Shown here in pieces: positions 16,804 to 24,107 of a DNA stretch of 31,515 bases. Source of the DNA: a virus; IMG/VR virus record IMGVR_UViG_3300010389_000077, positions 1 to 31,515 of that record. The stretch is one strand, 5' to 3'. The notes under the pieces were generated by a model. It was not told where the DNA came from. It saw only the letters and a list, made by a program, of their open reading frames with translations, and ran no database searches. Both the position numbers and the translations under genes were made by a program. How positions within the stretch are numbered: position 1 is the first letter of the stretch; each line of letters opens with the position of its first letter.

Positions 16804-16811
16804 TATTTATA
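16804..16811 (-). promoter_or_regulatory. T4-type late promoter of the packaged-protein operon
   Basis: The minus strand reads TTATAAATAAG, an exact TATAAATA, 25 nt upstream of the ATG at 16779 and overlapping the stop of gene 16807-17349. It separates the restriction genes from the capsid-targeted genes, which fits late expression of packaged proteins. Confidence 0.75.
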
Positions 16812-17349
16812 AATCTAGGATTGATTCGCTCTCTGTGATTGTCAACTCTTTTATAATGATTTGTTTAGGTAGGAAGTTCCAACAATAATAACTACTACTG
16901 AACGTGATTTTATCATTTGGTCTACCATCAGGACTAATGAACTTCATTCGCTTGTCAAACATTAGAAGTTGAAGATCCTTATCCTTAAAAAGTTGTTTGG
17001 GGGCAGAATCATTCAACCAAGTATTTGTCATAATAAGTGCGAATGGTTTATGAAAAGATAATGCTCTCTCAAAGAACTTTCTTTTATTTGTAAATGGTGG
17101 ATTGGATACGATGAGGTCCCATTTTTCAGGTTCATAACTAAAGAAATCCTGACCTGTAGAGATATGTGAATGAACTACAGGATTTTTCTTTGAAATGAGT
17201 CTTACGAAGTTCGATTCTTCTGTATCAAACGGACACCAGACAATAGCATTTTGTGGAATGTATTCTAAAATGGGAAGAACACCATAGACAGGAGTATATG
17301 CCTCATCACCACCACCATGAGAATACATAAGTTTTTTAGAATCTACCAT
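16807..17349 (-). CDS. Adenine-specific DNA methyltransferase-like protein
   Basis: 180 aa from MVDSKKLMYSHGGGDEAYTP. The catalytic motif NPPF is at 83-86 (LIVSNPPFTNKRKFFERA). The motif I area is unusual: IVWCPFDTEESNFVRL (36-51) instead of FxGxG, as in a phage family of small N6-adenine methyltransferases. A substrate loop follows (FALIMTNTW). No target-recognition domain is apparent. The ATG lies one base after the upstream stop, so it is made with the putative nuclease. It could protect phage DNA from that nuclease or from host enzymes. Confidence 0.75.
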   Translation of the reverse strand: MVDSKKLMYSHGGGDEAYTPVYGVLPILEYIPQNAIVWCPFDTEESNFVRLISKKNPVVHSHISTGQDFFSYEPEKWDLIVSNPPFTNKRKFFERALSFHKPFALIMTNTWLNDSAPKQLFKDKDLQLLMFDKRMKFISPDGRPNDKITFSSSYYCWNFLPKQIIIKELTITESESILDL

Positions 17350-17350
17350 A

Positions 17351-17920
17351 CTAGTGCTCAATGATATTATACTCAATTCCCATCTTATTTAATTGACTGG
17401 TTGAAATGGAAGCGCCAATTCTGGGGTCTGCTGCCTTACTATTATACCATGATTTCTCCCATTTCGGCCAAAGAACTTTCCAAACATTATCTGAGGTTAA
17501 TTGAATTGTCTTTACCAATTTACCCATATCGTAATCAATCATAGTCCAATGATGTAAAGAATCACGCATAATCTTTTCTTGACAATATTTTTCTTGTTCT
17601 AAAAGAGTTGGTTTTCTTGTTGTTCCATTATAGGAAAAACTATGTGACTTTTCTACACCTTTGTCGGTAAAACCTTTATACTCCGTTCCTTTAAATTCTG
17701 TGGTTACACTATCATCATCCAATCTAACACCATCAGATCCACCACCGATTCCCAATAGTTTATATCCGAGTGTTTGTGCTTGAATTAATTCAAAGAACCG
17801 ATTGTAATTAAAAGGATTTCCCCAACCGCGTAGTTTAAAATATCTCAACAAAAGAAATCCAATATCTTTAATATCATCATCTGTCAAATTCCGTGGATCA
17901 ATGTCTTTAAATTTTGTCAT
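17351..17920 (-). CDS. Putative PD-(D/E)xK restriction-type nuclease
   Basis: 189 aa. The part GIGGGSDGVRLDDDSVTTEFKG (57-78) gives D63 and E75-F-K77, the spacing of a PD-(D/E)xK active site, before a conserved-looking TEYKGFT. An N-terminal helical domain and a long tail with aromatic residues (WKVLWPKWEKSWYN) surround it. Coupled directly to the methyltransferase gene, the layout of a type II restriction pair. No family could be named, and an alternative is a phage DNA-processing nuclease. Confidence 0.55.
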   Translation of the reverse strand: MTKFKDIDPRNLTDDDIKDIGFLLLRYFKLRGWGNPFNYNRFFELIQAQTLGYKLLGIGGGSDGVRLDDDSVTTEFKGTEYKGFTDKGVEKSHSFSYNGTTRKPTLLEQEKYCQEKIMRDSLHHWTMIDYDMGKLVKTIQLTSDNVWKVLWPKWEKSWYNSKAADPRIGASISTSQLNKMGIEYNIIEH

Positions 17921-22060: not shown

Positions 22061-22118
22061 ATTATAGGGCACCCAGAGGGTTCTAGAGTGCCCTGTGTGA
22101 CAGTTCCTCATCTGGCAC
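22061..22118 (-). promoter_or_regulatory. PeSL-type element before gene 21573-22037
   Basis: TATAAT (minus strand of 22061-22066) directly abuts stem GGGCAC/GTGCCC (22067-22093). The dyad GTGACA-N10-TGGCAC lies at 22097-22118. Here the whole structure lies inside the 3' end of gene 22083-22226. Confidence 0.7.
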
Positions 22119-22327: not shown

Positions 22328-23416
22328 TTAGTATAAGGCATTTTTCAAAGGATTGGATTGGTCTTCTGCTAGTTGTTGGAGCGGCAAAGGAAGGTATTGC
22401 CAGATTGTTTTTTCAATAATATCAAATCTCAAGTTGTTAGCACCATTTGTTGAGTGAAAAGAGACTTCAGACCAATCAATATTTCTAATAATATTATCAA
22501 CTTCTTCTTTATAATTGAGAACAACTATTCCATATCCACGACGATGAGGAAGTTTTTCAAAATCATCATAAATGCGAATAGAATTGGAACCAAAAGAAGT
22601 GGAGGGTAAGTAGTAATCACAAGTATAAAGATGTTTTTTATTTCTTGTATTTCCGGGAGATCCTCCGTCAGAAAGTGAATAAATTTTGACGATGCTAGAT
22701 AAGTTTATTTGTCTTTCTTCTATTTTATGATTTTTTGCCCAAATCTGAAAAACTACATTAACACTTACAGTTTTTCCATCGGGATAATAAAATGAGGAAT
22801 CGACAACTTCACTATGAATTAGATTCAGACCTTTTACTCTACCTCTACAACTTCCTTTTCCATTACTATCAAATAATTGTGGCAAAACGAAGCATACAAA
22901 GTCACAAAACTCTGCTGCGTGATTGGTAAACTTAAGAGCAAGATGACCCCTTAATCCAAATGGCGGATTCCCTATACAAATATTATTTTTTGTAGATGGT
23001 TTCCAGTTGAGAAAATCTGATTGAATTATATCTTCGCGTTTAGGTTCTATATCCACACCAATACGACGATCTTCTGGCATTAGAGAATAAAAACTACCAT
23101 CACCTGCTGATGGTTCGATAAAAGTGAACTCTGAAATATTTACATTTAGATTCGTGAGAACTTCAATTGCTTTGTTATAACAATACTGTGCCGTATCTTT
23201 ATGTGTAAAAAATTGATCCTTTTCTTTCTCTGAAAACTGTGAATAATCTACATGAATATCAGCAACACGACACAGATCAAAATAATACTGCGGCGGTACT
23301 TCTTTCTTCTCTATCCACCTCTTGATTGTACCTTTATGTAGATACAATTCATCACAAATGGCACTCATACCATATTGTTGGTAGATGGGAAGAAAGAAGT
23401 CGTAGATATTATTCAT
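22328..23416 (-). CDS. HTH-fused N6-adenine DNA methyltransferase
   Basis: 362 aa from MNNIYDFFLPIYQQYGMSAI. Residues about 15-55 form an XRE-like helix-turn-helix (MSAICDELYLHKGTIKRWIE), then a class I methyltransferase: motif I EPSAGDGSF (101-109), D122 in GVDIEP, and catalytic NPPF (150-153). A long C-terminal part (NVVFQIWAK, YDDFEKLPHRRGYG) probably recognises the target. It overlaps the upstream nuclease gene by 8 nt. Layout is that of a type II methylase, the N-terminal HTH possibly repressing its own operon. Confidence 0.85.
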   Translation of the reverse strand: MNNIYDFFLPIYQQYGMSAICDELYLHKGTIKRWIEKKEVPPQYYFDLCRVADIHVDYSQFSEKEKDQFFTHKDTAQYCYNKAIEVLTNLNVNISEFTFIEPSAGDGSFYSLMPEDRRIGVDIEPKREDIIQSDFLNWKPSTKNNICIGNPPFGLRGHLALKFTNHAAEFCDFVCFVLPQLFDSNGKGSCRGRVKGLNLIHSEVVDSSFYYPDGKTVSVNVVFQIWAKNHKIEERQINLSSIVKIYSLSDGGSPGNTRNKKHLYTCDYYLPSTSFGSNSIRIYDDFEKLPHRRGYGIVVLNYKEEVDNIIRNIDWSEVSFHSTNGANNLRFDIIEKTIWQYLPLPLQQLAEDQSNPLKNALY

Positions 23417-24026
23417 TACCAATAAGTTTGCTGAGAAGAAAGAAACTAAGTAGGTCATCATCAGGTTGATTCAAATCATACTTAAATGTAACACCTGCTT
23501 TGATACCATGTGCAATAGAGCGCATACTAAAATCAACTTTTGCTTTGCCAGTCTCATTCTTACGGCAGTGACCGTTCTTACCAAAGATAGCAAGATTGAT
23601 TTTATTATCTGTTACTATCTCATCATAGCGAACGATAGTGATATAGATTACATCGTTAGCATCGTAATCAATAAAAGTAGCAAGATCCCATTTGTTATCT
23701 GTGAAATAAATATTTTCGTGTTGCCAACCTTTAGCAACACCTTTTGATACAGTACGTCCAGAAGTTTTTATCTCATTACGACGTTTCTTACCGTTGTGAA
23801 GAAACCAGAACAAATCATAGACACCATCATCATTAGATGTGTTAGAATCTTCATCCCATTGAACTGGAATATCAGTATATTTAAGAATAATGTTTCGCAT
23901 CAATTCTTCACCATATTTACCTTTATAATCAGTAGAAAGTTTTACAACTTCCTCAAACAAAGAACCAGTCCAGTAAGTAGATTTCTGTTGGTAATCTTCA
24001 GTCAGTTTAGTGATTAGGTCCCGCAT
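23409..24026 (-). CDS. Putative type II restriction endonuclease (PD-(D/E)xK)
   Basis: 205 aa from MRDLITKLTEDYQQKSTYWT. The active site reads D71 (GVYDLFWFLHNG) and E85-I-K87 (KKRRNEIKTSGRT), preceded by a helix with a conserved-looking E (KYGEELMRNI). Strand/loop (DLATFIDYDANDVIYITIVR) follows. It is tied to the methyltransferase by an 8-nt overlap, the common order in type II restriction-modification. Alternative: a nuclease aimed at host or rival phage DNA. Confidence 0.65.
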   Translation of the reverse strand: MRDLITKLTEDYQQKSTYWTGSLFEEVVKLSTDYKGKYGEELMRNIILKYTDIPVQWDEDSNTSNDDGVYDLFWFLHNGKKRRNEIKTSGRTVSKGVAKGWQHENIYFTDNKWDLATFIDYDANDVIYITIVRYDEIVTDNKINLAIFGKNGHCRKNETGKAKVDFSMRSIAHGIKAGVTFKYDLNQPDDDLLSFFLLSKLIGNE

Positions 24027-24048
24027 TAGATTGCTTGCGTATGTAGGT

Positions 24049-24107
24049 ATTATAAACCTCCTCTGACTGGTTGAGAACCCTCCTTGTGCCACTTCCTAAA
24101 CTGTCAC
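24049..24107 (-). promoter_or_regulatory. Promoter with gene-end dyad before the second nuclease/methyltransferase pair
   Basis: TATAAT (minus strand of 24049-24054) sits 23 nt before the nuclease ATG. The dyad GTGCCA-N10-TGTCAC (24086-24107, one mismatch) marks the end of gene 24108-24320. GGTTGAGAACC between them can form a small hairpin. The pair thus has its own transcription unit. Confidence 0.65.

Follow-up and report, generated by a model that had tools for sequence, protein, structure and literature searches.

Among 831 phages, 143 solitary methyltransferases (MTases) were found and nine restriction-modification (R-M) systems (PMC4176335). Chloroviruses and marseilleviruses also carry R-M systems; that of the chloroviruses serves host DNA degradation, that of the marseilleviruses causes no loss of host DNA and is assigned to the exclusion of rivals, and in melbournevirus the restriction endonuclease (REase) transcript precedes the MTase transcript (PMC7253447). 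These systems (CviAI/CviAII in chloroviruses, mel_015/mel_016 in marseilleviruses) are virus-borne and type II with N6-methyladenine (m6A), like the phage pair analyzed here, but they belong to eukaryotic viruses and represent a different system (GATC in the best-described cases), the comparison being one of descriptions. The temperate Nitratiruptor phages NrS-2 and NrS-3 carry an R-M system with a BglII homologue (PMC9723563), in which a type II endonuclease and an m6A MTase lie side by side as they do at the present locus; there R-M can defend the lysogen, whereas the family described below belongs to T4-like phages with no integrase detected. The chemistry of R-M and its presence on viruses are thus already known, and what we rate as unusual is the carrier and the reversed order of the operon. 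Occurrence of such a pair in T4-like cyanophages was not found described in the literature searched, most subscription journals lying outside the search.

The window (the whole stretch of DNA analyzed, 31,515 nucleotides) is a linear 31.5-kb IMG/VR fragment of an uncultured virus. It carries a nuclease gene (R) and a separate, adjacent MTase gene (M), the arrangement that a type II system requires (Table 1). Sequence, structural modeling and homology support their assignment to one paired family, consisting of a PD-(D/E)XK enzyme and an N6-adenine MTase bearing a helix-turn-helix (HTH). A preliminary description had proposed an R-M pair at this site, and that proposal is supported by the fold of the nuclease, by the pairing of both genes in bacteria and viruses, and by purifying selection. 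We consider it likely that these genes form a complete type II R-M system of a lytic T4-like cyanophage, working in the manner proposed further on.

Table 1. Features of the R-M locus, with positions given in the window
Feature	Positions	Strand	Basis or remark
N6-adenine DNA methyltransferase gene (M), 362 aa, N-terminal HTH	22328..23416	minus	conserved ATG at 23416, stop at 22328
M catalytic motif IV, NPPF	22958..22969	minus	invariant in relatives
M motif I, EPSAGDGSF	23090..23116	minus	E, P, G and F invariant in 17 phage and bacterial relatives
HTH-coding part of M, residues 5-51	23264..23404	minus	model, alignment, Pfam HTH matches
Overlap of R end and M start, 8 nt	23409..23416	minus	sequence
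Restriction endonuclease gene (R), PD-(D/E)XK, 205 aa	23409..24026	minus	ATG at 24026, stop at 23409
R catalytic core, D71 ... E85-I-K87	23766..23816	minus	invariant in 26 phage members
Promoter-like TTCTCA-17-TATAAT	24049..24077	minus	-10 at 24049-24054, ~22 nt before the R ATG
22-bp gene-end dyad	24086..24107		just upstream of the R-M unit; genome-wide element

The MTase is readily recognized from its own sequence. It matches the PADLOC type II profile MTase_II PDLC03280 (E 4.5e-60) and phrog_5172 (E 4e-35), and both motifs noticed at the outset are present, EPSAGDGSF at residues 101-109 and NPPF at residues 150-153. The position of motif I ahead of motif IV, together with a match of the M profile to M.TaqI (E 5e-5), identifies M as a predicted gamma-type, M.TaqI-like N6-adenine MTase, and the layout suggests that its target recognition part would be C-terminal. 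The N-terminal HTH is likewise borne out: Pfam HTH models are matched by N-termini of the family (HTH_23 by 6 of 17 relatives, best E 9.6e-5), and the helices of the M model (residues 5-24, 28-37 and 42-51) fit. This fusion is typical of the whole MTase family, bacteria included, and is not specific to phages. MTases of the M.EcoRII/M.SsoII type resemble M in carrying an HTH fused to the N-terminus of the enzyme, which in that type represses the R-M promoter by attaching to an operator there. Lone phage MTases of phrog_5172 (Agrobacterium phage Atu_ph07, Pseudomonas phage KIL1, Vibrio phage 10AMN, Erwinia phage Kaldavass) share a homologous catalytic core with M at 29-35% identity; however, they are only about 250-300 aa long, the match begins at residue 77-82 of M so that the HTH is unaligned, and their records, unlike the window, contain no match to the nuclease.

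By contrast with M, the phage nuclease sequence by itself gives no usable match in Pfam, NCBIfam, PADLOC, PHROGs or the PDB, and its identity therefore rests on the structural model, the motif and the bacterial homologues. Residues D71, E85, I86 and K87 are where the preliminary description had placed them, counted from the conserved ATG at 24026, which is also the start in several relatives; an in-frame GTG upstream would lengthen the gene to 24092. Across the phage and bacterial nucleases (26-member set) D33, G36, G39, D71, E85, K87, Q102, K163 and D165 are invariant. The AlphaFold2 model of R, built from 26 phage sequences (pLDDT 87.8, pTM 0.88), has the PD-(D/E)XK fold of type II restriction enzymes, on which the first reading of the gene had been made to depend. 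Its best fold match in the PDB is NhoI (E 3.4e-4), followed by Eco15I, archaeal Hjc, ThaI, PvuII and EcoRV, with modest TM-scores against the best REase matches (0.39-0.42 of the query). The model thus predicts for R both the PD-(D/E)XK fold and the intact active site that a type II restriction endonuclease requires. Two viral proteins in BFVD are similar in structure to R, A0A0P0YNA6 (TM 0.74/0.80, 26% identity) and F2Y0Z8 (TM 0.64/0.45, 23% identity); by their modeled structures they look like further viral members of the family of R, possibly from other large DNA viruses.

The two top matches, NhoI and Eco15I, are BisI-family enzymes, whose substrate is methylated DNA (methylated GCNGC); the likeness of R to them is one of fold, with no match in sequence. 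A nuclease of this modification-dependent kind, or a repair or junction nuclease such as the match to the Hjc resolvase would allow, could stand beside an MTase that acts alone as an anti-restriction enzyme, solitary MTases being the common case in phages (PMC4176335). We regard this reading as improbable. A modification-dependent nuclease that cut its partner's methylation would destroy the phage DNA. Moreover, phages and bacteria alike, whatever their gene order, pair the nuclease strictly with one MTase subfamily, and its bacterial homologues match PADLOC REase_II models (PDLC03498/03515, best E 2e-11); strict pairing and type II profile matches fit a cognate R-M pair.

The extent of the pairing in viruses was established by scanning IMG/VR with the nuclease, with the MTase and with a mixed phage-bacterial MTase alignment, using patterns conserved in both groups, so that sampling extends as far as such patterns reach. 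R-M pairs are very rare in phages, yet here one intact family is present in about 60 distinct lytic-type contigs in which the nuclease almost always lies immediately upstream of the MTase (a count made by hand from tables that includes the window and some viruses recovered in several samples). The exceptions are one contig with the reverse order (L153) and two with an MTase and no nuclease (L140, L147); a few loci are cut by contig ends, and three further contigs (L156-L158) have only distant MTases. In most phage relatives R and M overlap by 4-11 nt, while a few abut, and the 8-nt overlap originally described for the window is confirmed. The pair is nevertheless rare, for the phage nuclease has no match among 50,697 phage records. 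New restriction specificities might also be sought in this nuclease, whose own sequence matches nothing in PADLOC, Pfam or NCBIfam.

Both genes are under purifying selection: compared with its nearest relative, the window has a dN/dS of 0.16 for R and 0.15 for M, and the pairwise medians are 0.19 and 0.13, respectively. R diverges faster than M, as its relatives are 32-92% identical to the window protein and those of M 63-93%, and this faster divergence is what would be expected if the MTase alone mattered, with the nuclease carried along in decay. That explanation seems to us very improbable, since the catalytic residues are invariant, dN/dS is about 0.15, and the reading frames are intact in every phage relative aligned.

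The relatives in bacteria were reached through the MTase: a scan of genome contigs with the nuclease alignment found none, whereas 52 prokaryotic loci were recovered with the MTase alignment, their MTases being 40-54% identical and nearly all including the HTH. A nuclease homologue adjoins the MTase in 34 of these loci, and 28 of the 34 were already found with an HMM built from phage sequences only (E 1e-22 to 1e-5). The bacterial kin, from Helicobacter, Campylobacter, Brachyspira, Mollicutes, Rickettsiales and others, resemble the phages in having adjacent and often overlapping R-M genes, and their nucleases retain the same invariant residues at 17-26% identity to the window R. Together with the matches to type II REase profiles, these relatives speak for a real R-M family of which the window genes are a predicted pair. 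No relative of the bacterial nuclease homologue was found in phage records or plasmids. In the phytoplasma loci (L083, L088, L094, L101 and L102) the arrangement varies: Candidatus Phytoplasma australiense has four MTase copies or fragments, with a nuclease found beside none and a similar transposase-like gene adjoining three, and in Ca. P. pruni MTase and nuclease are about 1 kb apart.

The bacterial and viral loci differ in gene order. All but one of the 34 adjacent nucleases lie downstream of the MTase on the same strand (the remaining one is convergent; a few of the 33 are fragments or lie as much as 1 kb away), so that the order is M then R in bacteria and R then M in phages. When 42 viral MTases were placed in one tree with 47 from prokaryotes, by a quick method and with no bootstrap, a single branch split the viral from the prokaryotic set (SH-aLRT 98), and two changes of gene order suffice to account for the distribution. 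Because one branch lies between viral and bacterial MTases, the reversed order is an old viral trait, with viruses holding an old R-first lineage and bacteria an M-first one.

This topology also bears on the idea of a selfish cassette. R-M units are mobile, self-maintaining elements, and the neighbors of the present pair vary between phages, as they would if the pair were kept by addiction and post-segregational cutting to no benefit of the phage. However, the viral members all fall on one side of the supported branch, apart from bacteria, so that frequent hopping is not seen; addiction means little in a lytic cycle, and an R-first order would endanger a newly invading cassette. We consider such a cassette unlikely.

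Upstream of R lies the TATAAT noticed earlier, 17 nt downstream of a poor -35 (TTCTCA). A good -10 hexamer (5/6 or better) occurs near the same distance from the ATG in 14 of 23 sequences, compared with a mean of 3.3 (maximum 9) in 500 shuffles; the -10 element therefore exceeds chance, and its conservation supports the claim that the unit has a promoter module of its own. In the closest relative (L014:4409) these bases read TATGAT, one base different from the TATAAT of the window, and contain an ATG that lies upstream of the nuclease and in its frame; the site may reflect the loss or gain of an alternative nuclease start.

The unit had also been described as bounded by gene-end dyads. This holds on the upstream side, where a dyad abuts the unit, but on the M side the nearest one (22097-22118) is ~210 nt past the M stop. 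Nor do dyads mark the R-M unit, since the same element, with a fixed 9+4+9 shape (approximately GTGnCAsTT-N4-AACTGkCAC, often with CACAAGGCACTCCAGA after it), is found at about a dozen places in the window (3847, 5816, 6815, 8549, 9923, 11975, 12255, 13784, 14735, 18690, 22097 and 24086), mostly over or just after the stop codons of minus-strand genes. At a strict threshold 11 matches are found, compared with 1.6 in shuffles, and several relatives have the same dyad upstream of the R-M unit. Flanking dyads were therefore rejected as R-M operators or unit boundaries, and with the nearest dyad being a genome-wide gene-end element no specific operator for the HTH can be named.

Other genes of the window are of T4-like cyanophage type (a speD-like AdoMet decarboxylase, DUF6267 and DUF7717), and the gene for one window protein is similar at the DNA level to Synechococcus phage S-PM2; the assignment to a Synechococcus host rests on such DNA similarity of other genes and is to that extent provisional. 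A search for psbA (PF00124) in 33 contigs was negative, and photosynthesis genes are thus of no help in assigning the host. An Rfam search gave no match. Four pair-bearing contigs (82-217 kb) encode the T4 major capsid protein gp23, DUF7717 is found on 17 of 34 records, and a UvsW-like helicase and DUF6267 adjoin the pair on other contigs. Unlike temperate phage defence cargo, which carries integrase or lysogeny genes, the pair is not accompanied by a PF00589 integrase in any of 23 records including the window (a Pfam search of records that are fragments, with serine integrases outside its reach). The neighbors of the pair differ between phages, making it a patchy accessory. In one phage type (L040, L043, L044, L046) the genes on either side of it are members of a single family (f5) and bear methyltransferase-like TSPPYF motifs.

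In the mechanism that we propose, a host-sigma70-like promoter would drive early synthesis of both enzymes in the infected cell, that of M being coupled to that of R. Phage DNA entering the cell would have been methylated in the previous host and hence be safe from R, and with phage DNA methylated in advance R could be made first without harm. R would then cut unmethylated DNA, that of the host chromosome and of co-infecting phages, while M would re-methylate new phage strands, and the HTH of M would probably bind the control region of its own unit and thereby limit expression. With the gene for the cutting enzyme first, the reverse of bacteria, the phage may cut the DNA of its host or of rivals while sparing its own. 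Either target is possible given the marseillevirus and chlorovirus parallels, and the choice between them concerns how a real R-M system is used.

Use mainly against co-infecting phages or mobile DNA, and not against the host chromosome, is a serious possibility that we put somewhat short of even. The marseillevirus system spares host DNA, the exclusion of rivals being its presumed role (PMC7253447), a like role has been proposed for R-M of temperate phages (PMC9723563), and a patchy accessory with varying neighbors fits such a role. However, the phage nuclease, unlike the marseillevirus enzyme, reaches the host chromosome directly, and only in a host that by chance has the same methylation would the chromosome escape cutting. 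We therefore lean slightly toward host DNA plus rivals as the target of R in place of rivals alone. A stronger form of the proposal, which we advance only tentatively, is that the R-first operon belongs to a virus-specific lineage tuned for attack, in which the restriction enzyme would fragment the chromosome of the host, and rival DNA as well, while the HTH-methyltransferase served as a timer. If true, the attack-tuned pair would be a bacteriophage counterpart of chlorovirus R-M that reverses the gene order of the defensive form found in bacteria, and it raises the testable question of whether phages have made a defensive system offensive by changing which enzyme is made first.

A second nuclease-MTase-like pair is present in the window 5 kb from the first, also on the minus strand (16807-17349 and 17351-17920). 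It comprises a 189-aa protein with SDG...TEFK, which is PD-(D/E)XK-like, and a protein of ~180 aa with NPPF that corresponds to the phrog_799 DNA methyltransferase. Homologues of both occur together in Prochlorococcus phage P-TIM68, beside a PF01555 methylase and a helicase, where the nuclease homologue has a weak match to PvuII (PF09225, E 0.002, below the cut-off). In the relatives L048 and L049 a gene of ~300-350 aa separates the two homologues.
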